From contig NC_045140.1 of the NCBI RefSeq assembly GCF_008831285.2, positions 7,744,505-7,808,504 on the forward strand: a stretch of 64,000 bases of DNA. Direction: 5' to 3'. The position numbers and the translations under genes are program-made. A model generated the notes under the pieces. The model saw only the letters and a list, made by a program, of their open reading frames with translations. It ran no database searches and was not told the DNA's origin. The DNA comes from Nymphaea colorata (Eukaryota > Streptophyta > Magnoliopsida > Nymphaeales > Nymphaeaceae). This document shows, one piece after another, positions 15,859-64,000 of this stretch (position 1 is the first letter of the stretch; every line of letters starts with the position of its first letter).

Positions 15859-33836
<17,978 letters not shown>

Positions 33837-36340: not shown

Positions 36341-36344
36341 ATAA

Positions 36345-37275: not shown

Positions 37276-37279
37276 AGCT

Positions 37280-37340: not shown

Positions 37341-37343
<3 letters not shown>

Positions 37344-38537
37344 TAATTTCGTCAAAACAAATGGTAAATATATTGCAATAACAGTATGCAGGGGGTTAGG
37401 CTCCCCACCTATAGTAAAAATGCAATTCCTGTACAAGGAAATGGTTAGCAGGAACAAATATGCTAATCTTCACACTAACAAAAAAACAAAGGGTTTACTC
37501 AACCCTTCAAACGATCCTCCAAGAAATTCACTTGTGCTGTCGTCCACGCAATAGCACAAATAAAACTAGAAGAGTAAGAGTTTGCGCTTTTGCAACCACG
37601 TCCCGCTTTGAACATTTACCCCTTTGACTGTGCTTGTCATGTTACTTTTGATGTATAAATATTAAAAGGGATGCAATGGTTTAGTTAAAGAAACTGTACT
37701 TATCAAAATTAAAAATGATCCTTAGTGAAATAAAATGGCATACAAGCCTGCCTGTTTCATGCAAATATATATGCTCAATTCAAGTGGTTAATTATGAAAT
37801 ATTTAAGCATGGTCGTTATTTTGTTATTCCTTAAAAAGGTAAGCAATTTTTTTTTGAAACATTCATATAGAAATGCCGATTAAAGAGTTAGGAGTTTGAA
37901 GGAACTGCTGCAGTATGTAGTCGAGGTTCTCACTACAAGTAAAAATACATTTGATTATGCGGGTAAAATCAAACAATGATGTGTTAATGTATGCTTGAAA
38001 TTTGATCAATTAAAAATGTCAAAGCAAAAATGCCATGATTTCTCTTATATAATAGTTGTATGTGTACCTTGTTTTTGGTATTATATATAGTTGTCTGGAC
38101 ACCTTACTGTTGTTAACATTATCTGCATTTTTTACTGTATATATATATGCTGACCGTAGCACCCTTGTTTTTTAATATTCCTTGAATTAAAATGTCAGAA
38201 AGATTTTATATCTCTAATGAAATTCACTGACACGTTATTTTTTTTCAGACACAAGATGAAAACCTTCCCTACTTTAAAACACTTCAAATGCAAGTTTTTG
38301 ATTTTGATTGGCGTAAATCAAACTCCCTTAACACAAATCCGTCGTCATATATATATACATACATACATACAAAATAATGCGGACAATTCTCAGGAGATAA
38401 GAATTTCAATACTGTTATTGTAATAATCATAAATCTCCAATATGTCACTTGTCATAATAACATATGAATTGTTTCAAGAACATGGCACACCACTTAATTA
38501 CTATGTCGCTGTGAGAAGATGGTACCACATGAACTCA

Positions 38538-38539
<2 letters not shown>

Positions 38540-38600
<61 letters not shown>
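38540..38600. repeat. (TA)n microsatellite
   Basis: About 30 TA units; the corresponding tract in the inverted copy is at about 54296-54352. Confidence 0.95.
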
Positions 38601-38608
<8 letters not shown>

Positions 38609-39561
38609 TTATATATAGCCATGAACAATGTATCAACCATAATATATTATAGTTTCACTTACGCAAGAATTTGAACATCCAATAAATCTCAATCTTGCAT
38701 ACCATTGTCATCGTAAGTGTTATAAATACCATTCAATCAATTATCAGCCTAAACGTCATACATTTAGTCGCACTTAAGCAATTCAAACATTACACCTATG
38801 AAATCTATCGACAGCATGCCTTCCCATCAACTAGTACGCGAACCTAGGATGCCATGCATTAGTTCGCTTTTTAAGGGGAGTCAAAACAAGCCAATTCAAA
38901 CTCTCCATTTTCTCAAAATACAAATATAAATGTAATTTGAATTTTCAAATCGCAAGTATATCAATATGCCCTCAAAATTCTAGTTGAAATATGACAGCTA
39001 ATTTGGTACCACCACAAGCATACCACAATATTGCAGTTTTAAAAAATCTAAAATCTATGTTCTCTTTAATTTGGAAGTTAACTTTTTGCCTTCTCTCATA
39101 AATCCTACAGAACGGGTCCACAAATACAGTATCAAATCTAAAATGGTGAGCGAAAAAAAACTGGTGTAATGAGAGAAACAGCAATTGGCTTAGTGTGTTA
39201 GTGTTAAGCAAGGAGGTGCTGAAATCGGAAGTGGAATGTAATTGTCTGAAAATGCCAGTATCCACAATCGATGTCTAGAGAAAAAGGAAAATGCAATTTT
39301 CATATTACAAGCATATAGCAAGACATTTACTTGTCATGGAAATAAATTTATATACATGCGTTAGCCATATATTGTTAGCTCATATGTTGACAATTTCAGT
39401 ATGATGACATATTTGCAAATGATTGACACGAAAAATATGTTGCAGATATACAAATGGTTTGGCTTTTGCCCTTTGAATGTTATACCTAAGATTTGTATCC
39501 GTCGCAGTAAAATTGCCTCTCTTTTGCGCTGTAGTTTGAAGGAAATAGTGAGAATCAATTT

Positions 39562-43650: not shown

Positions 43651-43986
43651 TGTAGGCTAGTATGTTTTCTTGAGTGCATTGAAGCGAGAATTCTTAGGTT
43701 AAAGGCATGTTTCCTTAGAGGTGCCGTAGTGCAAAATCTTATACCAAAGTGGGTCTGCTTGTGTGTACTGAAGCACAAAATCTTACACTTAAACACAAGA
43801 AAAGTATGCATTTCTATGTTTACTTGGGGGTGCTGATGCTCAAAATCTTATGTCGATGCACGTTTACTTGGAGGAGCTGAAGTGTGAAATCTCTGCATAC
43901 AAGAATTTCAAAACAATAATAAACTGGTAAGTTTACTTGGGTACATTGAAACACAAAAGCTTATGCCAATGCAATGTTTGCTTGTA
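43650..43986. repeat. Degenerate minisatellite, about 6 units of roughly 50 bp
   Basis: Units follow the pattern TGTTTACTTGGGGGTGCTGA then AGCACAAAATCTTATGCC, at about 43655, 43706, 43752, 43815, 43860 and 43928. It ends exactly where copy B of the segmental duplication begins. Confidence 0.7.
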
Positions 43987-44109
43987 GTTGTCTAGGTCTT
44001 TTGAAATTTCCCTATACTTTTTGCATAATATATGATTCATCCCACTTTGGATGTTTATAATGATTTCCTGTAATCCTTTGCTTAACTCAGGCCGCAACAT
44101 GTTATACAG

Positions 44110-44361
44110 GTTGAGAAGGTGAATGATGTTGAAGTTGAAAACTTAAAACATCTTTGTGGACTTGTGGAGAACTGCATAGATAAGACGATACGGTTTGACC
44201 TTGATGAAGATCGAGTTATTGTTTTAAACTACATTAAAGCCAAACTTGCTGCCTCTCAGATTCTTAAAATTAAGCGCCATAGAATACCATCTGTAATGTC
44301 TAATGATCTACTTGACACACAAAAAAGCCAAGAGGAAATTCAAGCTTCATGCACAGGCTGA
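44110..44361 (+). CDS. Duplicate DEG10 terminal exon, intact splice acceptor and stop
   Basis: After an acceptor TTATACAG the exon reads [40 protein letters not shown] and [11 protein letters not shown] before TGA. It keeps the same phase (0) as the first copy at 33591, so splicing from exon 7 (donor after 30178) would give a 557-residue protein. It differs by a 6-bp insertion (extra Ile-Lys before RHRI), Arg-to-Glu and a few other changes, and the stop is TGA, not TAA. No upstream exons accompany it within 43.99 kb, so alone it cannot encode a protease. It is either an alternative terminal exon or a non-functional relic; the lack of stops argues that the duplication is young or under constraint. 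Confidence 0.7.
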
Positions 44362-45589
44362 ACTTGTAACATTCTCAGGTTCAGAATCCCTCTCTTTTGC
44401 TTTTGTTTGCATTTAAGTGCATGTGTATGTTTACATTTTGTGGATACTTGTTCCTTGATTACATGATAGTTCAAAACTAAAGCCTGCTTCCGGAGTGTAA
44501 AGATTTACTTCTCTCCTGGCACTCTGATAGGTAGTATTATTCTGTATGCGGGTGCCACTATAGATTTCTTGTGTTTTTTTTTCTCTTGATTGGGCTATAA
44601 GATTTGATTGTCCTGGAACGCTCACCCGTTTGCTTCTTCCCAGTGGTTGGCCCCGGCAAGGTAATGCAATTGGTGTTGGAGATTCTTTTGTGAAAGTCAA
44701 GAGTATGGGAAGCATGCAGAGAGCACTTTCTGGAATATTGCACTTGAAGCTGACCTCTTGCTCTCAACCCAGGGGAGTAGATTAGAGGCTAGTGGAATAT
44801 GTTGATGTGAACTATAATTTATAGGTAACCTATTGTTATTGGAAAATTTTGTATCTCTTATGCCTACCAATTGTTTGCATATTCATTAAATTTTATGCCT
44901 ATCCATTGCTCGGGCATGTGAGTACCCTGCTTTCATGGTGGCGAATATCTACATTCCACTTTATATTGGTTATACCTACCTCTATCTGAAATTATATGTT
45001 TCTTCGTATTTTTTAAGGAAATTTTTAAAACTGCACCCAAAGAATGGGCCACAATAAAAAACACAGTTTTTTTTTTGTGTATGTTAGATTTTTTAGGAAA
45101 ATTTTATGAATTCATTCGGTTCCATGCCTCAGCCAGAATTGAGGTGATCGGGCTGGGTACCTGGTACCCTGCCTACTAGACTCAAGCCTGGGCCCGGCCA
45201 GAGAAATGGGTATGGGGCTATTTCAATTTGGCCTGATTTGGCCCAAAAGGTTTATATATATATATATATATATGATCATGTATATTTTATTATGATTAAT
45301 TATATTTGTGTATTATTTTATATTAAAATATTAAAAAAAATATTTTTTAACCGGGCCGGGCTTGGGTCTCGGGTGTCGAGCTGGGCTCGGGCCGAGCCCA
45401 ACTCATTATCGAGCCGGCCCAATGTCCAGGCCTAATGACAATTAGGTTTTCTCATTGCTTATATATGGATTGTAGAATGAATCAATGGTTAACCTCATAT
45501 TATAATTTACAGACATGCTCATTGACAATAATCTTATGCATAAATTGCCACTTGAACTTTTAATCGTTAGAGAGTTTACACTGCTGCAA

Positions 45590-46935
45590 CTTTAACACCC
45601 CCTCAAACGGAGCATAGAGATTGACAATGCTTAATTTGCACCTTAAATTTTGAAACTGATCCTTTGCCAAAGCATTTGTAAATGAGTCTGCAACATGTTC
45701 ATGTGAAGCAATATATCTGGTTGAAACAGTGCCATCTTCAGCAAGTCATGAACCAAATGGCAATCCAATTCTGCATGTCTGGTAAGCTCATGTAGAATTG
45801 GATTTGATGCAATCTGAATAGCTGACCTGTTGTTGCATAGAAGTTGAACTAAAGATGAATTATCAACCTGAAAGTTAAGGTGAAGAATTTGTAGCCATAA
45901 AATCTCAGAGCATGTGTTTCCCATAGACCTGTATTCGGCTTCCGCTGATGTTTGTGAAGCAGTTGCTTGTTTCTCAGTCTTGTATGAGACCAAACTGCTG
46001 TTAATGTAAAATGAGACCAAACTGCTGTTAAAGTAAATATGAGACCAAACTGCTGTTCAAGTAAATATGAGAGCCAACTGATCTCCTTGTGTTACTGCTG
46101 TTCAAGTAAATATTAGATCCAATTGATCTCCTTCAGTTACTGCTGTTCAAGTAAATATGAGATCCAACTGATCTCCTTGAGTTTTACATGCTACAAAATC
46201 AACGTTACAATATGACCTAAGTTTTAAATTGCTACCTCCAGGAAAAAAGAGTTCTTGACCTGGTTCCATCTCACTCTTAGAGCTGCTTTATAATGAATCA
46301 TTCTTGGGTGCTTCATATGACGACTAAGAGCATGAACAACAAATGTAATTTCAGGCCCAGTTATGGTTAAGTATATAAGGCGCCCTATTATACAGTGATA
46401 TTAAGTTGGATCATTTGACAGTTCTCCATCTGAGGTTGAAAGTGTTTGTTTATACTCCATTGGTGTGTCACATGGTTGTGCATGAATTAGACCTACCTCA
46501 TCAAGAATGTCACATGTATATTTATGTTGTGACAAATAAATCTCTTTGGCTGATCTAGCAAGTTAAAGTCCCATAAAATGCCTAAGTTCCCCCAAATCAT
46601 TCATAGGAAAATGCTTGCCAAAAATATCTTTTGAATTCTTCAATATTAAAAAGACTTTCCGACTACTATGAGATCATCTACATACACCAACACAGTCATA
46701 TAAACCCCTTTTTGCATATAAGTAAATGGTGAGTAGCCACATTTGGATTGAACAAAGCCATAAGCAATGAGTGCAGTAGAAAATTTTGTGTACCAATTTC
46801 GATGGACCTACTTGAGGCCATAAAGAGACTTTTTTTATGGCTAGACATATCCTCTTGATCTCCAATTTCTCCCTTCCAACTGGGGCATCTTTTTCTTTCT
46901 CTCTTATTCTAATAAATGAGCAACAATGATGCGCA
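45590..46935 (-). pseudogene. Copia RT/RNase H remnant in copy B
   Basis: Same element as in copy A and nearly identical, but retaining about 105 bp (45720-45825) lost from copy A, so its RNase H frame reads through TSAEAEYRSMGNTCSEILWL, LLCNNRSAIQIASNPILHEL and TRHAELDCHLVHDLLK. The VYVDDLIVV box lies near 46660-46690. Dead by deletion and stops. Confidence 0.85.
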
Positions 46936-47569
46936 CCAATTTCAAAGAAAATTAAAAAAAAAAAATTCAAAGAACTTCCACAAAAGGTAATTACATCTTT
47001 CAAATCTTAAAATTCTCACCCCTAAGAAAGATGGATTGTTAGAGCTTTAAAATGCAACGTTTTTGCATTATGTTTGATTCCTGGTGCAGGAAATAGTGCA
47101 ACTAGCACCAAAGATAAAAATCTCATTGCATGTTGTAAACTGAAATGCATTAGTCTAAACTTTTTTGGTTAAACCACAGAGAAAAGATTGCGTCAACAAG
47201 TTCATTTTTAGATGTATCTCTCATGTTTTATTTAGAAGAAATGATGCATTTGGTTATTAATTTCTAACATCAGCGTATGTTTTCTTACAAATGGAAAACC
47301 ATTGGCTCAGACTACGTAAAAACTTGATGATGAAAAGCTTAAACTTTTTAGTTAGCCAAATTCAGTTAAAGATGTAGTTTTATAGTTAAAGACGTAGTTT
47401 TAATTAGCGATAGGCAATTAAAAATGGCATCTATAGGTCAGATTGGGCTGAAAACATTTGTTATGATTTAATGCTGGGGCCTAACAAAAAGGAGTCAGAG
47501 ATAAAGTGCATTTTCCTGTAGAGCAAATAAATATATCACGTCGTGTGATTAAAAAAATGCAAAATCTTG

Positions 47570-47890
47570 TGATTAATGAGTCATAAGTGTATTATGTTGA
47601 TTTATCAATTCCTTCCATTAGCCTTACAAAGATCTTTGTCAAAGAAAGTAAGTGCAATATTGATTGAATTTTCCAGTTTTTCCAAGGAATCATGTACAAA
47701 AGTTGGAAAAGAAAATGATTTAAAGCATTTAGGATCAGATTATGCTGATATTATGCCATATGGAAAGGATTTTTCCTCCACCATCCTTTGATATCATGAT
47801 CCACTTCCTATTCACTTAACTCATGAAGTAGTATTAAGTGGGTTTGTACAATACCATTGGATATATCCCATCGAAAGGTGTTTGACTATC
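47570..47890 (+). pseudogene. CACTA transposon DUF4218 remnant, left arm
   Basis: The frame reads LPLALQRSLSKKVSAILIEF, KENDLKHLGSDYADIM, and after a frame change PPPSFDIMIHFL, LTHEVVLSGFVQ and WIYPIERCL. Plant CACTA (En/Spm) elements encode a DUF4218 domain with the signature LP.ALR..L.K.V...I..L..FF, ...LE..FPPSFFDIM.HL..HL, and ..RWMYPIER; the order and spacing here agree. It is short, has a stop (TGA after STIL) and frame change, and lacks the TNP2 transposase. Confidence 0.7.
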
Positions 47891-47929
47891 AACTATATTT
47901 TTGCAGTTATTTGGATCTAATTTCAGACT

Positions 47930-48440
47930 TTGGGCCCAAAGCCCAATCTCAATTTAGACTAATTTTATAATTCAAATCAGGATCCAGTCCAAAAAACTCA
48001 TATAGAAGCCTAAAGCAGATCCATTGATCCAAATCCAGATCCAAATCCCAGCTCCACATCCAAATCTAAATCCTAAAACATGAAACATAACAGAACTTTA
48101 GATCCACACCTTGATCTAAATCTCAATTATGGACTAATTTGATCCCAATTTGTGCCTTCAATCCAATTCAGATCTGATCCAGATCCAAGATCCAAACTTT
48201 AGATCCATATCCTTGTTTGGTTATAAATTCTTAACTTAGATCCAATTCCTTCGTTTTACCTGAATTCATGTGTTGTTTGAGGTTTAGATCCCAAATCTAA
48301 ATGTTAGATCCAAATTTGAGATCTAAATTTAAATTTAAATATAATATTTTTATCCATTCTAAGCTCTTAATCCAAATCCAGATCCAAATCAGAGACCAAG
48401 TTCCATTTTTAGATTCGAATCCAAGTCACAGATCATTCGT
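47930..48440. repeat. Degenerate GATCCAAAT(C) repeat, left arm (right-arm copy 61560-62100)
   Basis: Many imperfect units of GATCCAAATCCAGATCCAAA with variants. The inverted arm holds TTGGATCTGGATTTGGATC. Probably non-coding retroelement sequence; no frame is conserved. Confidence 0.6.
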
Positions 48441-48719
48441 AACCCAAGTATCGAGGCGTTACGATCATTTTTCAAATACCAATAAATTTTAATTCAAAAT
48501 TCCCAATATACCATTGATTTTTGAAAATATAATTGAATATTCTAAAAAAACCTTGATTTGATCAAAATACAATTTAATTTTCTGGAAATACCCTTGTTTT
48601 TTAATAAATTTTTTCAAATACCCTTCGTGGGACCAATAACCAACTCGACAGGCTGACCAAGCATGACCAAGCACCGCCATGGTCCAGGCCTAGGAGGGCA
48701 GCATGCCCTTAGTGCGGTC

Positions 48720-51220
48720 AACCTATTTTTGGGTAGATTTAAATCTTTTAATGTTTTAAGTTATTTTTAAGCCAATAATGACTAATTAATGGCTAATTTT
48801 ATTTTGAAAAAAAATCACAATCCCCTTGAGCTTCCTTCATCTATAAATACCTCTTCATTTCTCTCATTTACCTATCATGTTTTAAAAGCTTTAAACCTTC
48901 TCTCATCTTTTAGATTTCTTGTTCTTCTCATCCTTTTCCTCTTTTTCTTTTACATTTTTCTTGCTTGCCTCTCTTCATTATCAACTTCAAACATTCATTT
49001 CCAAAAAGAGACCTTGGAGGAGCTTATAAAGGACTCTTGAAAAGCATGTGCAACCCGTTGGAGCCACTATCAAGGAATTCTCTTTGCCGAAAAGATCTAA
49101 AAGGCCACCTTTTACATTAAATTTTTTTTTAAAGGTATTTATAACTTTTCTTTCTACAATTTTGTTGCCCCTTTTTTTTTTTATTTTTTTATAACAAGCC
49201 GATGAAGGCCTTGAATCTCTCTAGAGCTTTGAATACTCTTTGAAGCTTTGGGAGCATGACCAAGACTAATGTTTAATTCATTTTCTATTTTGATTAGAAT
49301 TTTTTCTCTCTTTTAACTTATCTTTTATCAGTTAACTCTTTTTTTCATTTCTTTTAACTTTTTTTTTTATCTCATTTAAACTTGCTTTCTCTCATTTTAA
49401 CTTTTCTCTTTTTCATTTTAACTTCTTTTGCAGTCATTCTTTACTTTTTTTTTCATTTTAATATTTATTTCTCATTCTTAACTTTCTTCTTGCGTTTTAA
49501 CTTATGTTTCTTTCATTTTAATTTCTCGTGTATATTTCTTTCTTTTTATTGCTCTTTTCATTTCTCTCTCCTTTTAATTTTTCCTCTTTCAAATCTCTCT
49601 CTGTCTCTCCTTATCAGTATTTCTCTCATATTTATTTTCATTTTTTTCTTTCCCTCTTTTAATTTCTATCTATCTATTTTCACTCTCTCGTTTGATTGTT
49701 TGTGGATATGCATTATAATGTGAGGATTTGGGGTTGATTATTTTTTTATTTTCATCATTTTGAAGTTGGGACATGTCTAACCCCAAGAACATCTAAACAA
49801 ACTTGATGTACAAGTTAATTTGCATTGAGCATGTCATTTTCGATTTTTTAAATTGTAAATTATCTTTCACATTTTCCTAAACATTCATTTCTTTCTAGCC
49901 TTCCTTGGCCTACTTATATTTAAGTGACTCGGTAGATGAGATTTTACCTTTATTGATTTCTAACAAATGTTTCTTCTTCATTGTTCAATAGATATATGTT
50001 ATGGTAAGAATAACTTATTTTATTCTTAAGCATATAGAATTGATGTAATCATCATTTTTGGAATTCCTGAATGCTCACACGCACGCGACTCTAAGAAATT
50101 TAGGTGAGACAAGATCAAACCATAATAAAGTGATAATTGAATTAAGGCAAAATCTTGAAATTTTCTTAAGATTCAAAAGAAACACTCTTACAAATTCTAA
50201 TATTTTTTTTTGTTTCAAATATCAAATCTTGATTTTTTTAATATATTGTTTTGATTTTCAAATCTTTATAATATTACAAAATTCTTCGCTTTGGCCCTAT
50301 AATGAACAAGAACAATGGTGGTCGTTCATTTATTTTGATATATTATCTTTCAAACAAAACTTGAAAGTTTGCTTTTGCAAAGCATGATAAGTTGAAGCTC
50401 TGATTTGCGAAACAAGTAATTTACAAGTGTGTTTCTAATCATATTTTCTTTTGAAAACTTCCATTTTCAAAAACTATCTTTCCAATATGAGTTATTTTCA
50501 TTTGAGTTCTAGTGATAATATTTAAAGAACTCAAATGATCTTACAAGTATTTCTTTTAAACAATTTGGTTTTTATACTATTTATTTATTCCAACAATTCA
50601 ATCACAAGTTCATAAAATTACTAATTCATTAACCCTTAAGACCATAGTTCTAGACATGATGGCACTACTTTTTAAATCAAACTATAGTTTAATTAAATTT
50701 GTCTTAATATTTAAAAATTTTATTTAGACTTGAGCATGCATGCATATGAGATTTAGGATAATATTTCATATATCAGAATGTGCAAAACAAAGCTTAGTTC
50801 TTCGTATGGTTACCTCTAATAAAGGCATTGGAAACGTCCAGACTTCATACCAATGGACGAGTTCCTTTCTCTTTCATTCCAAAATAAAATCACATTTTTA
50901 TGAAGCACTTTAAAAACCAAACAATTTTGGGATGCAAACAGGCAATCGTGATTAATGCCTTGGACCGATTGAACCAAGCCCACTTTGAATTAGGCCGCGC
51001 AGCCCCATGCCCATCCCAAGCAAGAAGTAGACAAAGGGGATCATAGGAAAGACACATATATATATAGAATAATAAAATCTGTTACATAGTCATGAAGCAA
51101 AGGAGAAAGTCCAACAACATAAAGAACCAATGCAGTACATATGTGGTGCTAAGTCTGAACAACTTAACACATTATTTATTATATAAGTATAATTTTCAAC
51201 ATGCAAGCAATGCTGGCTAC
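48720..51220. other. Left-arm A/T-rich block, no gene recognised
   Basis: T-rich low-complexity sequence at 49130-49720 produces long Phe/Leu/Ser-rich open frames that are compositional artefacts. A frame of 109 codons at 50058-50387 is identical in both arms (59332-59661 on the minus strand) but has no recognisable domain and low-complexity hydrophobic content; identity reflects recent duplication rather than selection. Confidence 0.4.
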
Positions 51221-51269
51221 TTCTTATTGTAGGCTTACAGCTTCAGCCGCTATTAGTATAGGGATTTGA

Positions 51270-51689
51270 CTAATGCAGGTTATGAGCAGGCACAAAGTAA
51301 CCAAAGCTGAGGACTGGTGGCTTTCCATGGCGTGCTGCATCTTCCATAACTTGGCTCTTGTAAAACTCGGGATTGTGGCGGTGAGGGGGAAGAGCCTTAA
51401 TGAGCAGCCTATAGCTGTAGTGCCCAGGGGCACGCTCTAATTTCTCTGCATCGATGACATGCAGAAAATAGAGGCGGGCATGGTTTTGCTTGTTGTGCAT
51501 ATCTACGGCAGATTTGCCCAATTCTTGAATGTGGTGATCCTTCTCGGCATGGGGAACATGAACCCAGCGGGGCTCTGGACGACGATGATCATGATTATCA
51601 TGATGGCCATCCTGGTGAGCAGTGGCCAGCAAGGCCATTGCTGCAAAGCAAGTCATAGAGAGCAGGAGAAATGGAAGGAGACGACCCAT
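51270..51689 (-). CDS. Secreted His-rich cystatin-like protein, type II
   Basis: A single exon, 139 codons. Residues 1-24 form a signal peptide (MGRLLPFLLLSMTCFAAMAL, cleavage likely after ATA). A His-rich segment follows (HQDGHHDNHDHRRPEPRW), then a cystatin-like fold: IQELGKSAVDMHNK matches the plant cystatin LARFAV-like helix signature except that the aromatic position is Ser; RLYFLHVIDAEK fits the first strand; ERAPGHYSYRLLIKA occupies the place of the QVVAG loop and following strand, but lacks Gln-Val-Val; no PW loop is seen. Phytocystatins inhibit papain-type proteases through the QxVxG loop and W residue, so inhibitory activity is doubtful. TATA box CTTATAAATG lies at 51806-51815, 117 bp before the ATG. 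It is divergent to the type I gene started at 53162. Function unknown; cystatin relationship is by motif only. Confidence 0.75.
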   Translation of the reverse strand: MGRLLPFLLLSMTCFAAMALLATAHQDGHHDNHDHRRPEPRWVHVPHAEKDHHIQELGKSAVDMHNKQNHARLYFLHVIDAEKLERAPGHYSYRLLIKALPPHRHNPEFYKSQVMEDAARHGKPPVLSFGYFVPAHNLH

Positions 51690-51805
51690 GGCGATAGTGG
51701 ACGGGTGATGTTGGGAGGGTTGTGGAGCTAGAGCTTGGAAGAAAGCTAGCTCTGGTTATGATGAAGTAGTAGTACCGATGGGTAAGGGTCCTTGGACAAA
51801 ACTCC

Positions 51806-51815
51806 CATTTATAAG
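51806..51815 (-). promoter_or_regulatory. TATA box of the left-arm type II gene
   Basis: CTTATAAATG on the minus strand, 117 bp upstream of the ATG at 51689. The same box stands at the same distance before the right-arm copy. Confidence 0.65.
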
Positions 51816-51932
51816 CGCGGCCAGGGAGGCACACAGGGATCATAGCTGGTCATGAATTTTCATTTACTTATCTGAAGGAGCCAAATTAAAGGAATTATTA
51901 GAAGGCATATAGTTCTACAACATGTATCCTTG

Positions 51933-51950
51933 GGCGACGCAGTCAATGGT
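51933..51950 (-). promoter_or_regulatory. Conserved 18-bp element with W-box core, type II promoter
   Basis: ACCATTGACTGCGTCGCC on the minus strand, about 244 bp upstream of the ATG. The identical element occurs in the type I promoters at 52877 and 56813 and in the other type II promoter at 57767. TTGAC is the core of WRKY-factor binding sites. Confidence 0.6.
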
Positions 51951-52876
51951 AAACACTACGAAATGGCTTGCACGTCTATTCTCGCTCATCTCAAGATATC
52001 CCTAACCTTGAGGCTTTTGATTTTAAACGTTTATCTTCCTAAGCTTGAGACTTTTGATTTTAAAACTTATCCTCCTGTTAAGCAATACGACTAATCCGAA
52101 CCTTTAGTGGGCATTGTTTCGTTTAGGTCTCAACATTAATTATTGTAGCATGCTCCATTTAGATTACATCGCAAATTGTTAACGTGATTCTTATTCTACT
52201 TCTCTTCCACTTTCTTTAACGTGCTTAGATTTGTGATGTTCACGTTGTATCCCTTTGAAAGGAGCGTCCTGTTTTCCGATGCTACCCTGGTGGGAGGAAT
52301 GACAGTCCTTTTACCTGTACGCGCCACCAATTGCCATGGCGAACACGGAATTCAATGACCTATACATTCATTCCTGATTATAAGTGGACTTTCATGCATT
52401 ATTGCCGTTTATAACAGAACCCATATATGAAGAGGCAAAGCAGGTCCACTTATTGACCAAATTAATTGCCCTCAGTAGAGAGTTTAAAGCCAATGAACTG
52501 AATAAGCGGCATCAATATTTTACATTATATGCGGCGGAGTACAGGCACAGTTCCTTTCTTCTAAAACGCAATGCTTCCACCAGCAGTGCTGCTTCGGAAA
52601 ACAGGACGCCAGTAAGAAAAGAAGACAAGAAAGGACGTGGATGTCACAAATTTGAAGCATGTTAAACAATGTAGAGGAAAAAAATATAACATAATAATCA
52701 GTGCACGTTGCGCGATGTCATCAAAATGGAACAAGACAAAAATATTATTGAGTTTATTGGGAATTCAAGGAGCCTGAACATTTAAACTCAAATGTCTGAC
52801 GAGTAATATATAAATATATCTCTCTCTGAGTGGTCCAGAGATCGAGAACCAACATGCAGAACATGTCTCAGTATAT

Positions 52877-52894
52877 ACCATTGACTGCGTCGCC
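52877..52894 (+). promoter_or_regulatory. Conserved 18-bp element with W-box core, type I promoter (left arm)
   Basis: ACCATTGACTGCGTCGCC, 268 bp before the ATG at 53162, in a promoter that otherwise differs from the type II promoters. Confidence 0.6.
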
Positions 52895-53018
52895 TCTAGC
52901 GTACATGACCCAAACTATGTCTTCATCTTCAATTTTTTTTCCCCCTTCACTTAATTTGGGTCAATTCCTTCATAGAAACATACAAGATCACCAGCCAGGC
53001 GAGCGCGTTGTTGTTGGC

Positions 53019-53028
53019 CTATAAATAG
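53019..53028 (+). promoter_or_regulatory. TATA box of the gap-truncated type I gene
   Basis: CTATAAATAG, 134 bp before the ATG at 53162; identical box at 56678-56687 before the complete type I gene. Confidence 0.65.
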
Positions 53029-53161
53029 CCAAGGACTTACAAATCAATACCCTACTACTTCTTCGTAGCCAAAGCAAGATTTCTTCCTCTCCACAAGCTT
53101 GGTTAATAACTTATTGCGATCTCCGTGAAAGCTGCCACCAATATCCCCGTCCACTATCACC

Positions 53162-53182
53162 ATGGGTCGTCTTCTTCCATTG
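53162..53182 (+). CDS. Type I cystatin-like gene, cut off by assembly gap after seven codons
   Basis: ATGGGTCGTCTTCTTCCATT encodes MGRLLP and the start of the next codon before the N run. Promoter, TATA box and 5' leader upstream match the complete copy at 56120-56542. The remainder is missing from the assembly rather than demonstrably from the genome. Confidence 0.75.
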
Positions 53183-53282
53183 NNNNNNNNNNNNNNNNNN
53201 NNNNNNNNNNNNNNNNNNNNNNNNNNNNNNNNNNNNNNNNNNNNNNNNNNNNNNNNNNNNNNNNNNNNNNNNNNNNNNNNNN
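53183..53282. other. Assembly gap, exactly 100 N
   Basis: A run of 100 N, the conventional length for a gap of unknown size. The flanking sequences are not contiguous parts of one known unit: left is the start of a type I gene, right (53283) is 158 bp of arm sequence. Confidence 0.98.
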
Positions 53283-53440
53283 AATAAAACATGAGAGATA
53301 CATCTAAAAATTAACTTGTTGACGCAATCTTTCTCTGTGGTTTAACCAAAAAAGTTTAGACTAATGCATTTCAGTTTACAACATGCAATGAGATTTTTAT
53401 CTTTTGGTGTAGTTGCACTATTTCCTGCACCAGGAATCAA
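53283..53440 (-). repeat. 158-bp piece of arm sequence next to the gap
   Basis: Direct match to 62782-62940 and inverse match to about 47085-47245. It adjoins type I gene 3' flank at 53441 (CAGGAATCAA then GGGCAAAGGC). Read on the minus strand it looks like the start of another repeat unit after the end of the previous one. Confidence 0.85.
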
Positions 53441-54298
53441 GGGCAAAGGCCAAACCATCTGTATATCTGCAACATATTTTTCATGTCAATCATTAGCAAT
53501 ATGTCATCATACTGAAATCGTCAACATATGAGCTAAATATATGGCTAACGCATGTATATAAATTTATTTCCATTACAAGTAATGTCTTGCTATATGCTTG
53601 TAATATGAAATTGCATTTTCTTTATCTCCAGACATCGATTGTGGATACTGGCATTTTCAGACAATTACATTCCATTTCCGATTTCAGCACCTCCTTGCTT
53701 AGCACTAGACACTAAGCATTGCTGTTTCTCTCATTACACCAGTTTTTTTTCGCTCACCATCTTAGATTTGATACTGTATTTGTGGACCCGTTCTGTAGGA
53801 TTATGAGAGAAGGCAAAAGTTAACTTCCAAATTAAAGAGAATAGATTTTAGATTTTTTAAACTGCAATATTGTGGTATGCTTTTGGTGGTACAATTAGCT
53901 GTCATATTTCAACTAGAATTTTGAGGGCATATTGATATACTTGCGATTTGAAATTCAAATTACATTTATATTTGTATTTTGAGAAAATGGAGAGTTTGAA
54001 TTCGCTTGTTTTGACTCCCCTTAGAAGCGACTATGGATGGCATCCTAGGTTCGCGTACTAGTTGATGGGAAGGCATGCTGTCGATAGATTTCATAGGTGT
54101 AATGTTTGAATTGCTTAAGTGCGACTAAATGTATGACGTTTAGGCTGATAATTGATTGAATGGTATTTATAACACTTACGATGACAATGGGATGCAAAAT
54201 TGAGATTTATAGGATGTTAAAATTCTTGCGTAAGTGAAACTATAATATATTATGGTTGATACATTGTTCATGGCTATATATAATACATACATATATAT

Positions 54299-54355
<57 letters not shown>

Positions 54356-55507
54356 TTCATGTGGTACCATCTTCTCACGGCGACATAGTAATTAAGTGGT
54401 GTGCCATGTTCTTGAAACAATTCATATGTTATTATGACAAGTGACATATTGGAGATTTATGATTATTACAATAACAGTATTGGAATTCTTATCTCCTGAG
54501 AATTGTCCGCATTATTTTGTATGTATGTATGTATATATATATGACGACGGATTTGTGTTAAGGGAGTTTGATTTACGCCATCAAAATCAAAACTTGCATT
54601 TGAAGTGTTTTAAAGTAGGGAAGGTTTTCATCTTGTGTCTGAAAAAAATAACGTGTCAGTGAATTTCATTAGAGATATAAAATCTTTCCGACATTTTAAT
54701 TCAAGGAATATTAAAAAACAAGGGTGCTACGGTCAGCATATATATATACAGTAAAAATGCAGATAATGTTAACAACAGTAAGGTGTCCAGACAACTATAT
54801 ATAATACCAAAACAACGTACACATACAACTATTATATAAGAGAAATCAGTTATTCACTTTTCCAGCCATGGCATTTTTGCTTTGACATTTTTAATTGATC
54901 AAATTTCAAGCATACATTAACACATCATTGTTTGATTTGACCCGCATAATCAGATGTATTTTTACTTGTAGTGAGAACCTCGACTACATACTGCAGCAGT
55001 TCCTTCAAACTCCTAACTCTTTAATCGGCATTTCTATATGAATATTTCAAAAAAAATTGCTTACCTTTTTAAGGAATAACAAAATAATGATCATGCATAA
55101 ATATTTCATAATTAACCACTTGAATTGAGCATATATGTTTGCATGAAACAGGCAGGCTTGTATGCCATTTTATTTCACTGAGGATCATTTTAATTTTGAA
55201 AAGTACAGTTTCTTTAGCTAAACCATTGCATCCCTTTTAATATTTATACATCAAAAGTAACATGACTAGCACAGTCAAGGAGGTAAATGTTCCAAGCGGG
55301 AAATGGTTGCAAAAGCGCAAACTCTTACTCTTCTAGTTTTATTTGTGCTATTGCGTGGACGACAGCACAAGTGAATTTCCTGGAGGATCGTTGGAGGGTA
55401 GAGTCAACCCTTTGTTTTTTTGTTAGTGTGAAGATTAGCATATTTGTTCCTGCCTAACCCCCTGCATGCTGTTATTGCAATATATTCACCATTGGTTTTG
55501 ACGAAAT

Positions 55508-55561
<54 letters not shown>

Positions 55562-56119
55562 AGCTTAATTTCCATTTTACACTTGCCTTTTTGTTCTGGT
55601 GCTTTGGCATATATACATTCGTTGTACTCAAGAGGCATGTATACAAAAGGGTTCACACTACAAACATCCATTTGAATGGCTATACCGGAAATAACATTGT
55701 TGAGGATCGATAAAAGGTTTGCAAACAAATAATGAAAGTATGTCAGCTAGCTGGGTGCAGGTCATGTATGAGAAAAGTGGACCAACTTCTTAAAAAATCA
55801 AGTTGTAGGGAACGGCAAAAAACGAAAGGCACGTAATTGGTAGGTACAAACTATAGACCAAAGGGAACATGGGAAAGTCACAGTAGAAATAATAAACTCT
55901 ATTACGTACTGATGAAGCAAAGCAAACCAGAAGTCCAACATTCAAGACAAAGAGAATGATAAAGAACCAATGCAGATATATATGTAGTAGTGCTAAGTCT
56001 GGTCAACTTAACACACTATTTATTATGTATGTATTTTTTTTTTTCAACATGGAAGCAGCCAAGTGTCATGCTGGCTACTTCTTATTATAGCTTCAACAGT
56101 TATTAATATAGGGATTTGA
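53441..56119. other. 3' flank of the type I gene, no further gene
   Basis: A/T-rich sequence with (TA)n at 54296-54352 and (CT)n at 55511-55559. It mirrors 36714-39471. No coding frame was recognised. Confidence 0.5.
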
Positions 56120-56542
56120 CTAATGCAGGTTATGGGCAGGCACAAAGTAACCAAAGCTGACTGCTGGCTTTCCATGGTGATGGTGTGCTGAATCTTCCAT
56201 AACTAGGCTCTTGTAAAACTCTGGATGGTGGCGGTGAGGGGGAAGAGCCTTAATGAGCAGCTTATAGCTGTCGTGCCCAGGGGCACGCTCTAATTTCTCT
56301 GCAGCGATGACATGCAGAAAATTGAGGCGGGCATTGTTTTTCTTGTTGTTCATATCTACGGCTGATTTGCCCAATTCTTGAATGTGGTGATCCTTCTCGG
56401 CATGGGGAACTTGAACCCAGCGGGGCTCTGGACGATGAGGATCGTGATTATCATGATGATCATCATGGTGGGCAGTGGCCACAAAGGAGATTGCTGCAAA
56501 GAAAGTCGTAGAGAGCAGGAGCAATGGAAGAAGACGACCCAT
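56120..56542 (-). CDS. Secreted His-rich cystatin-like protein, type I (complete copy)
   Basis: A single exon, 140 codons, intact. Signal peptide at residues 1-24 (MGRLLPLLLLSTTFFAAISF, cleavage likely after ATA), then HHDDHHDNHDPH; I count 20 His in the 116-residue mature chain, including HHHH near residue 125. Cystatin-like core: Trp42, IQELGKSAVDMNN at 54-66 (family consensus LGxFAVxxxN, aromatic replaced by Ser60), LNFLHVIAAEK at 73-83, then ERAPG at 85-89 where inhibitory cystatins have QxVxG, and Y-x-L-x-I-x-A at 93-99. No PW motif. Known family members bind papain-type proteases; loss of both loops suggests a different role. The His pairs suggest metal binding, which is inference. Head-to-head with the type II gene at 58029. 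TATA box at 56678-56687. Confidence 0.8.
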   Translation of the reverse strand: MGRLLPLLLLSTTFFAAISFVATAHHDDHHDNHDPHRPEPRWVQVPHAEKDHHIQELGKSAVDMNNKKNNARLNFLHVIAAEKLERAPGHDSYKLLIKALPPHRHHPEFYKSLVMEDSAHHHHGKPAVSFGYFVPAHNLH

Positions 56543-56677
56543 GGTGATAGTGGACGGGGATATTGGTGGCAGCTTTCACGGAGATCGCAATAAGTTATTA
56601 ACCAAGCTTGTGGAGAGGAAGAAATCTTGCTTTGGCTACGAAGAAGTAGTAGGTGTATTGATTTGTAAAGTCCTTGG

Positions 56678-56687
56678 CTATTTATAG
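56678..56687 (-). promoter_or_regulatory. TATA box of the complete type I gene
   Basis: CTATAAATAG on the minus strand, about 136 bp upstream of the ATG. Confidence 0.65.
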
Positions 56688-56812
56688 GCCAACAACAACG
56701 CGCTCGCCTGGCTGGTGAATCTTGTATGTTTCTATGAAGGAATTGACCCAAATTAAGTGAAGGGGGAAAAAAAATTGAAGATGAAGACATAGTTTGGGTC
56801 ATGTACGCTAGA

Positions 56813-56830
56813 GGCGACGCAGTCAATGGT
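56813..56830 (-). promoter_or_regulatory. Conserved 18-bp element with W-box core, type I promoter (right arm)
   Basis: ACCATTGACTGCGTCGCC on the minus strand, about 271 bp upstream of the ATG. Confidence 0.6.
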
Positions 56831-57766
56831 ATATACTGAGACATGTTCTGCATGTTGGTTCTCGATCTCTGGACCACTCAAGAGAGAGATATATTTATAT
56901 ATTACTCGTCAGACATTTGAGTTTAAATGTTCAGGCTCCTTGAATTCCCAAATAAACTCAATAATATTTTTTGTCTTGTTCCATTTTGATGACATCGCGC
57001 AACGTGCACTGATTATTATGTTATATTTTTTTCCTCTACATTGTTTAACATGCTTCAAATTTGTGACATCCACGTCCTTTTCTTGTCTTCTTTTCTTACT
57101 GGCGTCCTGTTTTCCGAAGCAGCACTGCTGGTGGAAGCATTGCGTTTTAGAAGAAAGGAACTGTGCCTGTACTCCGCCGCATATAATGTAAAATATTGAT
57201 GCCCGCTTATTCAGTTCATTGGCCTTTAAAACTCTCTACTGAGGGCAATTAATTTGGTCAATAAGTGGACCTGCTTTGCCTCTTCATATATTGGGTTCTG
57301 TTATAAACGGCAATAATGCATGAAAGTCCACTTATAATCAGGAATGAATGTATAGGTCATTGAATTCCGTGTTCGGCCATGGCAATTGGTGGCGCGTACA
57401 GGTAAAAGGACTGTCATTCCTCCCCACCAGGGTAGCATCGGAAAACAGGACGCTCCTTTCAAAGGGATACAACGTGAACATCACAAATCTAAGCACGTTA
57501 AAGAAAGTGGAAGAGAAGTAGAATAAGAATCACGTTAACAATTTGCGATGTAATCTAAATGGAGCATGCTACAATAATTAATGTTGAGACCTAAACGAAA
57601 CAATGCCCACTAAAGGTTCGGATTAGTCGTATTGCTTAACAGGAGGATAAGTTTTAAAATCAAAAGTCTCAAGCTTAGGAAGATAAACGTTTAAAATCAA
57701 AAGCCTCAAGGTTAGGGATATCTTGAGATGAGCGAGAATAGACGTGCAAGCCATTTCGTAGTGTTT

Positions 57767-57784
57767 ACCATTGACTGCGTCGCC
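57767..57784 (+). promoter_or_regulatory. Conserved 18-bp element with W-box core, type II promoter (right arm)
   Basis: ACCATTGACTGCGTCGCC, 245 bp before the ATG at 58029. Confidence 0.6.
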
Positions 57785-57902
57785 CCAAGGATACATGTTG
57801 TAGAACTATATGCCTTCTAATAATTCCTTTAATTTGGCTCCTTCAGATAAGTAAATGAAAATTCATGACCAGCTATGATCCCTGTGTGCCTCCCTGGCCG
57901 CG

Positions 57903-57912
57903 CTTATAAATG
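57903..57912 (+). promoter_or_regulatory. TATA box of the right-arm type II gene
   Basis: CTTATAAATG, 117 bp before the ATG at 58029; identical in position to the left-arm copy. Confidence 0.65.
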
Positions 57913-58028
57913 GGAGTTTTGTCCAAGGACCCTTACCCATCGGTACTACTACTTCATCATAACCAGAGCTAGCTTTCTTCCAAGCTCTAGCTCCACAACC
58001 CTCCCAACATCACCCGTCCACTATCGCC

Positions 58029-58447
58029 ATGGGTCGTCTCCTTCCATTTCTCCTGCTCTCTATGACTTGCTTTGCAGCAATGGCCTTGCTGGCCACTGCT
58101 CACCAGGATGGCCATCATGATAATCATGATCATCGTCGTCCAGAGCCCCGCTGGGTTCATGTTCCCCATGCCGAGAAGGATCACCACATTCAAGAATTGG
58201 GCAAATCTGCCGTAGATATGCACAACAAGCAAAACCATGCCCGCCTCTATTTTCTGCATGTCATCGATGCAGAGAAATTAGAGCGTGCCCCTGGGCACTA
58301 CAGCTATAGGCTGCTCATTAAGGCTCTTCCCCTCACCGCCACAATCCCGAGTTTTACAAGAGCCAAGTTATGGAAGATGCAGCACGCCATGGAAAGCCAC
58401 CAGTCCTCAGCTTTGGTTACTTTGTGCCTGCTCATAACCTGCATTAG
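58029..58447 (+). pseudogene. Type II cystatin-like gene with a 1-bp frameshift
   Basis: The first 100 codons equal the left-arm type II gene (signal peptide MGRLLPFLLLSMTCFAAMAL; HQDGHHDNHD; IQELGKSAVDMHNK; YSYRLLIKALP). At 58329-58332 there are four C where the left arm has five (51385-51389, read as G), so the frame shifts and runs on to 58493, giving an unrelated C-terminal tail. In the unshifted frame the normal end FGYFVPAHNLH and TAG at 58445-58447 are present. Either a young inactivating deletion or a homopolymer sequencing error. The cystatin-like core up to the last strand is still encoded. Confidence 0.8.
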
Positions 58448-61019
58448 TCAAATCCCTATACTAATAGCGGCTGAAGCTGTAAGCCTACAATAAGAAGTAG
58501 CCAGCATTGCTTGCATGTTGAAAATTATACTTATATAATAAATAATGTGTTAAGTTGTTCAGACTTAGCACCACATATGTACTGCATTGGTTCTTTTATG
58601 TTGTTGGACTTTCTCCTTTGCTTCATGACTATGTAACAGATTTTATTATTCTATATATATATGTGTCTTTCCTATGATCCCCTTTGTCTACTTCTTGCTT
58701 GGGATGGGCATGGGGCTGCGCGGCCTAATTCAAAGTGGGCTTGGTTCAATCGGTCCAAGGCATTAATCACGATTGCCTGTTTGCATCCCAAAATTGTTTT
58801 GGTTTTTAAAGTGCTTCATAAAAATGTGATTTTATTTTGGAATGAAAGAGAAAGGAACTCGTCCATTGGTATGAAGTCTGGACGTTTCCAATGCCTTTAT
58901 TAGAGGTAACCATACGAAGAACTAAGCTTTGTTTTGCACATTCTGATATATGAAATATTATCCTAAATCTCATATGCATGCATGCTCAAGTCTAAATAAA
59001 ATTTTTAAATATTAAGACAAATTTAATTAAACTATAGTTTGATTTAAAAAGTAGTGCCATCATGTCTAGAACTATGGTCTTAAGGGTTAATGAATTAGTA
59101 ATTTTATGAACTTGTGATTGAATTGTTGGAATAAATAAATAGTATAAAAACCAAATTGTTTAAAAGAAATACTTGTAAGATCATTTGAGTTCTTTAAATA
59201 TTATCACTAGAACTCAAATGAAAATAACTCATATTGGAAAGATAGTTTTTGAAAATGGAAGTTTTCAAAAGAAAATATGATTAGAAACACACTTGTAAAT
59301 TACTTGTTTCGCAAATCAGAGCTTCAACTTATCATGCTTTGCAAAAGCAAACTTTCAAGTTTTGTTTGAAAGATAATATATCAAAATAAATGAACGACCA
59401 CCATTGTTCTTGTTCATTATAGGGCCAAAGCGAAGAATTTTGTAATATTATAAAGATTTGAAAATCAAAACAATATATTAAAAAAATCAAGATTTGATAT
59501 TTGAAACAAAAAAAAATATTAGAATTTGTAAGAGTGTTTCTTTTGAATCTTAAGAAAATTTCAAGATTTTGCCTTAATTCAATTATCACTTTATTATGGT
59601 TTGATCTTGTCTCACCTAAATTTCTTAGAGTCGCGTGCGTGTGAGCATTCAGGAATTCCAAAAATGATGATTACATCAATTCTATATGCTTAAGAATAAA
59701 ATAAGTTATTCTTACCATAACATATATCTATTGAACAATGAAGAAGAAACATTTGTTAGAAATCAATAAAGGTAAAATCTCATCTACCGAGTCACTTAAA
59801 TATAAGTAGGCCAAGGGAAGGCTAGAAAGAAATGAATGTTTAGGAAAATGTGAAAGATAATTTACAATTTAAAAAATCGAAAATGACATGCTCAATGCAA
59901 ATTAACTTGTACATCAAGTTTGTTTAGATGTTCTTGGGGTTAGACATGTCCCAACTTCAAAATGATGAAAATAAAAAAATAATCAACCCCAAATCCTCAC
60001 ATTATAATGCATATCCACAAACAATCAAACGAGAGAGTGAAAATACATAGATAGAAATTAAAAGAGGAAAAGAAAAAAATGAAAATAAATATGAGAGAAA
60101 TACTGATAAGGAGAGACAGAGAGAGAGAGAGATTTGAAAGAGGAAAAATTAAAAGGAGAGAGAAATGAAAAGAGCAATAAAAAGAAAGAAATATACACGA
60201 GAAATTAAAATGAAAGAAACATAAGTTAAAACGCAAGAAGAAAGTTAAGAATGAGAAATAAATATTAAAATGAAAAAAAAGTAAAGAATGACTGCAAAAG
60301 AAGTTAAAATGAAAAATAGAAAAGTTAAAATGAGAGAAAGTAAGTTTAAATGAGATAAAAAAAAAGTTAAAAGAAATGAAAAAAGAGTTAACTGATAAAA
60401 GATAAGTTAAAAGAGAGAAAAAATTCTAATCAAAATAGAAAATGAATTAAACATTAGTCTTGGTCATGCTCCCAAAGCTTCAAAGAGTATTCAAAGCTCT
60501 AGAGAGATTCAAGGCCTTCATCGGCTTGTTATAAAAATATAAAAAAAAAAGTGCAACAAAATTGTAGAAAGAAAAGTTATAAATACCTTTAAAAAAAAGT
60601 TTAATGTAAAAGGTGGCTTTTTAGATCTTTTCGGCAAAGAGAATTCCTTGATAGTGGCTCCAACAGGTTGCGCATGCTTTTCAAGAGTCCTTCATAAGCT
60701 CCTCCAAGGTCTTTTTTTGAAAATGAATGTTTGAAGTTGATAATGAAGAGACGCAAGCAAGAAAAATGTAAAAGAAAAAGAGGAAAAGGATGAGAAGAAC
60801 AAGAAATCTAAAAGATGAGAGAAGGTTTAATGCTTTTAAAACATGATAGGTAAATGAGGGAAATGAAGAGATATTTATAGATGAAGGAAGCTGAAGGGGG
60901 TTGTGATTTTTTTTAAAATAAAATTAGTCATTAATTAGTCATTATTGGCTTAAAAATAACTTAAAACATTAAAAGAGTTAAATCTGCCCAAAAATAGGTT
61001 GACCGCACTAAGGGCATGC

Positions 61020-61390
61020 TGCCCTCCTAGGCCTAGGCCATGGCAAGCCTAAACAGGCCATTTTGCCTAGCCACATGCCTATTCTGGCTTGTTTTGAGCG
61101 GCCGCAAGCTGGGCCTGGTCAGCTAAAGGTCTACCCTCGCCGAGCCAAGAGGGCCCAAACTGGTATTGGCCAGCCAAGGGTGCGCCAAGCTGGCCAGGGC
61201 CTTGCCTAACTGGGCCAGGTGTGTTAGGGTGGTGCTTGGCGGGCTAGGCTGGCTGAGGCCGTGGTTGGCCTGCCATAGCCTGCCAGGCCAGCTTGGGCTT
61301 GGATTGGCTAGTCAGGCCAGGCAGTGGTTGAGGTTGGCCAGGCCATGGGGGTGCTTGGTCAGCCTGCCCAGTCAGTTGTTGGTCCTACAA
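61020..61390. repeat. GGCCAGG-type minisatellite, right arm only
   Basis: About 370 bp of degenerate GGCCAGGC, TGGCCAGCC and GGCTAGGC units, GC-rich in an A/T-rich arm. The left arm has only about 60 bp of the same material at 48640-48710 (CAGGCTGACCAAGCATGACC). Open frames inside are artefacts. Confidence 0.75.
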
Positions 61391-62129
61391 AGGGTATTTG
61401 AAAAAATTTATTAAAAAAGAAGGGTATTTCCAGAAAATTAAATTGTATTTTGATAAAATCAAGGGTTTTTTAGAATATTAAATTATATTTTCAAAAATCA
61501 ATGGTATATTGGGAATTTTGAATTAAAATTTATTGGTATTTAAGAAATGATCGTAACGCCTCGATACTTGGGTTACGAATGATCTGTGACTTGGATTCGA
61601 ATCTAAAAATGGACCTTGGTCTCTGATTTGGATCTGGATTTGGATTAAGAGCTTAGAATGGATAAAAATATTATATTTAGATTTAAATTTAGATCTCAAA
61701 TTTGGATCTAACATTTAGATTTGGATCTAAACCTCAAACAACACATGAATTCAGGTAAAAAGAAGGAATTGGATCTATGTTAAGAATTTATAACCAAACA
61801 AGGATATGGATATAAATTTTGGATATTGGAGCTGGATCAGATCTGAATTGGATTGAAGGCACAAATTGGGATCAAATTAGTCCATAATTGAGATTTAGAT
61901 CAAGGTGTGGATCTAAAGTTCTGTTATGTTTCATGTTTTAGAATATAGATTTGGATGTGGAGCCGGGATTTGGATCTGGATTTGGATCAATGGATCTGCT
62001 TTAGGCTTCTATATGAGTTTTTGGACTGGATCCTGATTTGAATTATAAAATTAGTCTAAATTGAGATTGGGCTTTGGGCCCAAAGTCTGAAATTAGATCC
62101 AAATAAATGCCAAATATAGTTGATAGTCA

Positions 62130-62445
62130 AACACCTTTCGATGGGATATATCCAATGGTATTGTACAAACCCACTTAATACAACTTCATGAGTTAAGTGA
62201 ATAGGAAGTGGATCATGATATCAAAGGATGGTGGAGGAAATATCTTTTCCATATGGCATAATATCAGCATAATCTGATCCTAAATGCTTTAAATCATTTT
62301 CTTTTCCAACTTTTGTACATGATTCCTTGGAAAAACTGGAAAATTCAATCAATATTGCACTTACTTTCTTTGATAAAGATCTTTGTAAGGCTAATGGAAG
62401 GAATTGATAAATCAACATAATACACTTATGACTCATTAATCTCAA
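62130..62445 (-). pseudogene. CACTA transposon DUF4218 remnant, right arm
   Basis: Inverted copy of the left-arm remnant with the same open frame (SHKCIMLIYQFLPLALQRSL to GKDISSTIL) and the same downstream frame break. Only a few substitutions separate the copies. Dead fragment. Confidence 0.7.
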
Positions 62446-63059
62446 GATTTTGCATTTTTTTAATGCACGAGTCGTGATATATTTATTTGCTCTACAGGAA
62501 AATGCACTTTATCTCTGACTCCTTTTGGTTAGGCCCCAGCATTAAATCATAACAAATGTTTTCAGCCCAATCTGACCCTATAGATGCCATTTTTAATTGT
62601 CTGTCGCTAATTAAAACTACGTCTTTAACTATAAAACTACGTCTTTAACTAAATTTGGCTAACGAAAAAGTTTAAGCTTTTCATCATCAAGTTTTTACGT
62701 AGTCTGAGCCAATGGTTTTCCATTTGTAAGAAAACATACGCTGATGTTAGAAATTAATAACCAAATGCATCATTTCTTCTAAATAAAACATGAGAGATAC
62801 GTCTAAAAATGAACTTGTTGACGCAATCTTTTCTCTGTGGTTTAACCAAAAAAGTTTTGACTAATGCATTTCAGTTTACAACATGCAATGAGATTTTTAT
62901 CTTTGGTGCTAGTTGCACTATTTCCTGCACCAGGAATCAAACATAATGCGAAAACATTGCATTTTAAAGCTCTAACAATCCATCTTTCTTAGGGGTGAGA
63001 ATTTTAAGATTTGAAAGATGTAATTACCTTTTGTGGAAGATCTTTGAATTTTTTTGTTA

Positions 63060-64000
63060 ATTTTCTTTAAAATTGTAGGGCATCATTGTTGCTCATTTAT
63101 TAGAATAAGAGAGAAAGAAAAAGATGCCCCAGTTGGAAGGGAGAAATTGGAGATCACGAGGATATGTCTAGCCATAAAAAAAGAATCTTTATTGAAGATT
63201 GACAAAAGTATATCAAGTATGAAACTTTTTTGGATGAACGGTATTTATATGATCAGGTAATTCTACACCATCACCATCAATGACAAGATTATCAAGAAAA
63301 ACCGATCGGTTTGTATTATTGAGGAACTTCTATTCCAGTGTGGTCATTCAAGAACCACTGATTGCAACTTTGTCAAGCAAAAAGATCTTCATACAAGTAC
63401 CCCTTGTCAAATTTCTTGTCGTTCTCAAAATTTTCAACCCATCACAAAAATCGAGTATCTCCAAAATTTCTAAACCCGCTTCCTATAGTGAAGCTGCTCA
63501 TCCATCTAATTGGGTCAAGGCAATGCAACAAGAAAGTGAGGCATTGAAAGCAAAAGACAACTGAACCTTGGTTTCACCTCCGAAGAACATTAAACCCATT
63601 GGATGCAAATGGGTTTGTTGCATCAAATATAGGCTGATGGTCAAACTGAGAGGTTCAAAGCAAGATTGATGGAAAAATAGTTTGCACAAATAGATGGAAT
63701 GGATTTTCATGAGATGTTTGCTCCAGTTGCAAAACTGATCATAGTCTGTTGTTTCTTAGCAGTGGCAGCCAAACGCAGTGGATCCTATATCAAAGGGATG
63801 TGTATAATGTCTTTTCAAATTACAATTTAGAGGGGGATATCTACATGTTGTCACCACTAGGATATTGCAGCAATGAAGAATCTTGTTTGCAAGCTCAAGA
63901 AGTCTCTTTATGGCCTCAAGTAGGTCCATCGAAACTGGTACACAAAATTTTCTACTGCACTCATTGCTTATGGCTTTGTTCAATCCAAATGTGGTTACTC
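63060..64000 (+). pseudogene. Copia pol remnant, longer version, running off the window
   Basis: Plus-strand frames read the spacer before RT (NFLSFSKFSTHHKN; ASYSEAAHPSNWVKAMQQES), then TLVSPPKNIKPIGCKWVCC, FAPVAKLIIVCCFLAVAAKR, QRDVYNVFSNYNLEGDIYML and, after 63890, KKSLYGLK and KLVHKIFYCTHCLWLCSIQM-like sequence. The stretch 63190-63890 is absent from the copies at 36.2 and 46.8 kb. Stops and frame breaks are frequent. The order is that of Copia pol, N-terminal RT side. Confidence 0.8.

Follow-up and report, generated by a model that had tools for sequence, protein, structure and literature searches.

A reversed contig probably accounts for a large inverted repeat in an array of cystatin-like inhibitor genes of Nymphaea colorata

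In the genome assembly of Nymphaea colorata (GCF_008831285.2; 407.8 Mb in 783 sequences), a window of 64,000 nt on the forward strand of NC_045140.1 (7,744,505-7,808,504; C3:7744505-7808504 of a 30.9-Mb scaffold) contains a large inverted repeat beside a gap of 100 N. I conclude with high confidence that this inverted repeat is a scaffold artefact, in which the middle contig of a head-to-tail gene array has been placed backwards. The mirror image is probably absent from the DNA of the organism. As judged from its sequence, the real feature is a head-to-tail array whose unit consists of a DEG10-like last exon and two SQAPI/cystatin-like genes, called here type I and type II. The next 79.5 kb of the same scaffold were also read, and the window coordinates are continued to 143496. 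This reading is based on two gaps, the contig limits, a substitution-free overlap, one-base deletions that rise toward the contig ends, and the loss of inverted repeat pairs when the contig is turned. The segments of the array (A, B, and C) are listed in Table 1.

Beyond the window, a second gap of 100 N was found at 94518-94617, and no further N run of 10 or more exists in 1-143496. The region thus consists of a left contig ending at 53182, a middle contig of 41,235 bp (53283-94517) bounded by a gap on both sides, and a third contig starting at 94618. Gaps of 100 N are compatible with several scaffolding tools. It was revealed that the first 7,456 bp of the middle contig as placed (53283-60738) are the reverse complement of the first 7,481 bp of the third contig (94618-102098), with no substitutions. 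The alignment is bounded by the ends of both contigs, and the two contigs share the same unusual B-to-C junction. Indel events in the overlap are concentrated at the ends: 26 of the 34 missing from the middle contig lie within 1.5 kb of its own end, and 9 of the 14 missing from the third contig lie within its first 1.5 kb. Such a match would be an unmerged end overlap of the same DNA, present only if the middle contig is turned, when it overlaps the third contig by 7.48 kb.

The effect of turning was assessed on repeat pairs of at least 500 bp in the region 33465-104659. As scaffolded, there are 18 direct and 29 inverted pairs; after turning the middle contig, there are 31 direct and 16 inverted pairs. 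The inverted pairs with more than 90% identity fell from 21 (50.0 kb) to none. The 16 remaining inverted pairs are all matches between type I and type II genes (82.5-86.9%), which is expected because the two form a divergent gene pair. Similarly, the DEG10-like last exon has four matches in the genome, at C3 positions 7778071(+), 7788596(+), 7810884(-), and 7832633(-). Their order of +, +, -, - as scaffolded becomes + throughout, the single orientation of a head-to-tail array, only after turning. In the third contig, the array stops at 104659. This position is homologous to 43984, the start of the next unit in the left contig.

As assembled, the arms are indeed reverse complements over more than 6 kb, as the original prediction from the window sequence had claimed. 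They align in three inverted pieces, 46731-46834/64000-63897 (97.1% identity), 46820-48663/63192-61352 (96.75%), and 48676-53182/61044-56522 (98.81%), a match far beyond chance. The prediction was also right that the gap has 100 bases, that it cuts the opening codons of a type I gene (the left contig stops 21 bases in, after ATG and six codons), and that an intact type I twin with an open frame marks the inner end of the other arm. However, the gap is not the heart of the inverted repeat. On its right side, 3.24 kb of extra sequence (53283-56521) precedes the arm, matching 36359-39473 and 47074-47232 of the left contig in inverted orientation. The gap was rejected as a palindrome centre on this ground and because of the second gap and the end overlap. 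The arm homology continues beyond 64000 (42996-46834 matches 67735-63897). Neither end of the arms is biological, since on the inner side they stop where the left contig runs out (its last base, 53182) and on the outer side at the window edge. Every change of orientation has an N gap, and no contiguous sequence crosses the junction.

These observations would be explained as follows. In this reading, each array unit comprises the DEG10-like last exon, followed by a Copia remnant, the type II (-) and type I (+) genes as a divergent pair, and downstream sequence. The assembler would have broken within the repeats, and the three contigs would have been joined by 100-N gaps with the middle one inserted backwards. 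In the true order, the left contig would be followed by the middle contig in its turned orientation, which in turn overlaps the beginning of the third contig. The scaffolder may have been misled about the orientation, probably by contact data, and about 5.5 kb would be missing at the left gap if the second left unit is built like those of the middle contig. Thus, the real head-to-head duplication offered by the original prediction is not supported, since the contig that follows the gap has to be turned to fit the scaffold. As for its other proposal, tandem units or haplotypes facing each other, the tandem-unit form was supported. The second left-contig unit may be either a tandem neighbour of the outer middle-contig unit or its allele.

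Are the differences between the arms real? Piecewise alignments gave a divided answer. In the outer arm (46820-49674), there are 70 substitutions in 2,843 aligned bases (2.46%), 11 one-base indels, and longer changes, including length changes of 723 bp and about 300 bp at the ends of the outer left arm. These differences are those of truly different units or alleles. The inner arm (49675-53182) has no substitutions in 3,508 bases, against 86 predicted from the outer-arm rate, and 18 one-base indels. Seventeen of the indels are bases missing from the left contig, 12 of them within its last 877 bp. Sixteen of the 17 fall in single-base runs as read in the right copy, and the exception is the one nearest the gap. 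The left contig tip also has no substitutions against the third contig or the second copy in the middle contig. The eighteenth indel is the 1-bp frameshift in a type II copy. Since the inner 3,508 bp have only one-base indels, this frameshift is best read as sequencing noise. By comparison, the two copies of segment A in the interior of the left contig (A1 and A2) differ by 94 substitutions and 6 one-base indels, which are split evenly between them (3 in each direction). Segment B of the middle contig has 23 one-base deletions versus 1 in its left counterpart (36359-39473); moving away from the contig end at 53283, there are 8, 7, 5, and 3 deletions per 505 bp. Deletions rising toward the tips appear to be the pattern of badly polished contig ends. 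Hence the claim that the arm differences exceed sequencing noise stands for the outer arms and fails for the inner arm, and the view that all of them are real was rejected. Both middle-contig copies show the Copia and minisatellite length changes, which survive as real differences; the frameshift does not. Near the same end of the middle contig (53500-54034), I also noticed four two-base TG gaps against the left copy, perhaps a systematic base-calling error.

The identity of the left contig tip has another potential source. The 3.5-kb tip may be chimeric, built from reads of another unit rather than of its own locus, a possibility of some weight although I consider it short of probable. The abrupt change from 2.46% to no substitutions at about 49.67 kb and the gradient of deletions to the tip would suit it. 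On the other hand, the units within the middle contig differ from each other by 1 substitution over 17 kb, so that a homogeneous array explains the tip as well. The tip identity may reflect either a homogeneous array or a borrowed tip and, by itself, would be no proof of single-copy DNA.

A haplotype misjoin, in which the middle and third contigs belong to one haplotype and the left contig to the other, seems unlikely but deserves consideration. The middle contig would still be backwards, and the second left unit and the outer middle-contig unit would be alleles and not tandem neighbours. The 2.46% divergence followed by an identical stretch suits alleles as well as paralogues, and a 723-bp Copia piece occurs in both middle-contig copies and in neither left-contig unit. 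However, a like divergence (1.4-4.8%) separates A1 and A2, which are units on one contig, and the turned middle contig begins with about 5 kb absent from the left contig. Moreover, among the best candidates scored, other contigs have no high-identity type I copy and no DEG10-like exon.

A real 41-kb inversion within the inhibitor array, with breakpoints in both gaps and gene conversion keeping the inner arms identical, is very improbable: the arms are nearly identical toward the gap and diverged farther out, and conversion-driven arm identity is described for palindromes (PMC3723533), including that of a willow sex chromosome (PMC7023750), but both breakpoints would have to fall in the two gaps, more coincidences are needed, the turned middle contig fits the third contig by its substitution-free end overlap, and turning abolishes every inverted pair above 90%.

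Three points weigh against the reversed contig. First, a proper end overlap is lacking between the left contig and the turned middle contig, and the join on this side is drawn from structure. Second, an end-bounded alignment could also arise from a real inverted repeat that extends beyond the assembled ends. Third, one-base indels occur outside the contig ends as well: in the outer arms, 10 of the 11 are bases missing from the right copy and 1 from the left. Apart from this locus, an inverted duplication was found inside the third contig with no N run (111050-129378; 115012-118607/129378-125777 at 98.7%, further inverted pieces at 96.2-98.2%). Unlike the one in the window, it may represent either nested transposons or a true inverted repeat.

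Table 1. Features of the array, its flank, and the contigs in the window
Feature	Position	Strand	Remark
DEG10-like protease gene, left flank of array	15652-33836	+	Name from the original prediction; domains tested by Pfam
Unit 1, segment A: DEG10-like last exon and Copia remnant	33465-36367	+	Direct copy of 43984-46938 (88.5% and 98.4%); PDZ_3 at 33567-33836
Unit 1, segment B: type I gene without signal-peptide end	36359-39473	+	Matches 56474-53439 (inverted) and 98875-101943 (direct)
Unit 2, segment A with stranded DEG10-like last exon	43984-46938	+	Copy of unit 1 segment A; PDZ_3
Outer left arm, first part of segment C	46820-49674	+	Truly diverged from middle contig
Inner left arm, last 3.5 kb of left contig	49675-53182	+	Equals middle and third contigs except for one-base indels
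Type II SQAPI/cystatin-like gene, open frame	51270-51755	-	PF16845, 29.8 bits
Scaffold gap between left and middle contigs	53183-53282	.	100 N; sole N run in the window
Middle contig, part in the window	53283-64000	-	Very probably placed in reverse; whole contig 53283-94517 (C3:7797787-7839021)
Start of a further segment C copy, joined to B	53283-53440	-	Matches 47074-47232
Segment B of middle contig	53439-56474	-	Bases missing increasingly toward contig end
Type I SQAPI/cystatin-like gene, intact	56120-56575	-	PF16845, 25.3 bits
Type II gene copy with 1-bp frameshift	57963-58493	+	Run of 4 C instead of 5

In the left contig, the first unit lacks segment C; the junction alignment showed that its segment B is joined to segment A at a 9-base shared stretch. 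The type I gene is fused there to Copia-remnant sequence (36345-36713), removing the signal peptide. The second unit consists of the stranded exon, the Copia remnant, segment C with the type II gene, and the start of the type I gene, and then meets the gap. The stranded exon (44086-44361) is a PDZ_3 exon duplicate carried by tandem duplication, and two more copies exist in the middle contig. About 0.7 kb of Copia sequence (63184-63899) occurs in the middle-contig copies but in neither of the left-contig units; its absence is possibly a shared derived deletion grouping the two left units. The turned middle contig has two units at a spacing of 21.7 kb, which share 17 kb. These direct copies, 55851-72789 and 77594-94517 (C3:7800355-7817293 and C3:7822098-7839021), differ by 1 substitution in 16,950 aligned columns; of the 30 indel events between them, 24 are missing from the copy at the contig end. 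Either the sequence was duplicated in tandem very recently or the assembly created the second copy, the latter being considered because one copy stops at the contig end. Repeats spaced by about 0.9 kb lie at 71112-73798, with 480-bp blocks at 71112, 72014, and 72958; the far end of the middle contig lies in the other copy of these repeats, which may explain the break there. The third contig has segments C and B, a short C piece, and a segment X, in that order. The short piece (101939-102515, matching 47073-47667) adjoins B at the same junction as in the middle contig.

The DEG10-like gene has Pfam matches to Trypsin_2 (16883-17236), Trypsin (19549-19833), PDZ (23884-24204), and PDZ_3 (24830-25117 and 33567-33836); its start was taken from the start of the open reading frame. 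SQAPI is presented in PMC2784779 as a cystatin that is specific to the Cucurbitales and was recruited to act against aspartic proteases. The four proteins tested scored 25.3, 29.8, 26.1, and 25.6 bits against PF16845, below its curated cut-off of 31, and are thus named only SQAPI/cystatin-like. The intact type I gene has identical copies at C3:7822376 and C3:7843278. A genome search with the type I protein gave at least 80 matches, on C3, C6, and C8, and clusters of distant relatives with 30-50% identity lie at C3:1014023-1318533 and C6:4551415-4676340. A type II pseudogene in one arm was rejected, as the frame is open over 161 amino acids in the three remaining copies of this gene in the array. 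If the overlap is a single piece of DNA, the third-contig copy, which lies within it, would be the same locus as the frameshifted one. A sub-threshold PORR match at 52384-52665 (E 0.036) was also rejected, its other copy (56909-57235) matching no family. Elsewhere in the window, minus-strand fragments resemble a hAT transposase dimerisation domain (26148-26684) and a Cys/Met metabolism PLP enzyme (8568-9239).

Similar errors have been described. It is stated in a passage of PMC6719893 that inversions are common in Hi-C scaffolding when contigs are short. The present locus resembles that situation in having a short contig between longer ones, with an orientation contradicted by its own end overlap. 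The marks of false duplication listed in a section of PMC9516828 are a gap between a duplicated pair on one scaffold and half or very low depth; here, a gap does lie between a duplicated pair on the same scaffold. By the terms given there, the inner pair, identical except for sequencing-type errors, would be homotype-like, and the diverged pair would be heterotype-like. Unlike those cases, the pairs here belong to a tandem array that is itself real, and some of the copies are therefore genuine. Overlaps retained among primary contigs are mentioned in part of PMC7203741. As far as these parts go, the three descriptions all appear to fit the locus. The conversion palindromes described in parts of PMC3723533 and PMC7023750 are similar in their inverted arms with an identical inner part. 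They differ in that the present locus has no contiguous junction and its arms become direct repeats once the contig is turned.

A second gap beyond the window, together with a substitution-free end overlap whose indels rise to each contig's own end, provides a test for similar cases that requires no reads. In N. colorata, recognising the reversed contig guards against mistaking the locus for a palindrome and the frameshift for pseudogenisation, and it corrects the orientation of a small array of inhibitor genes and its likely copy number.

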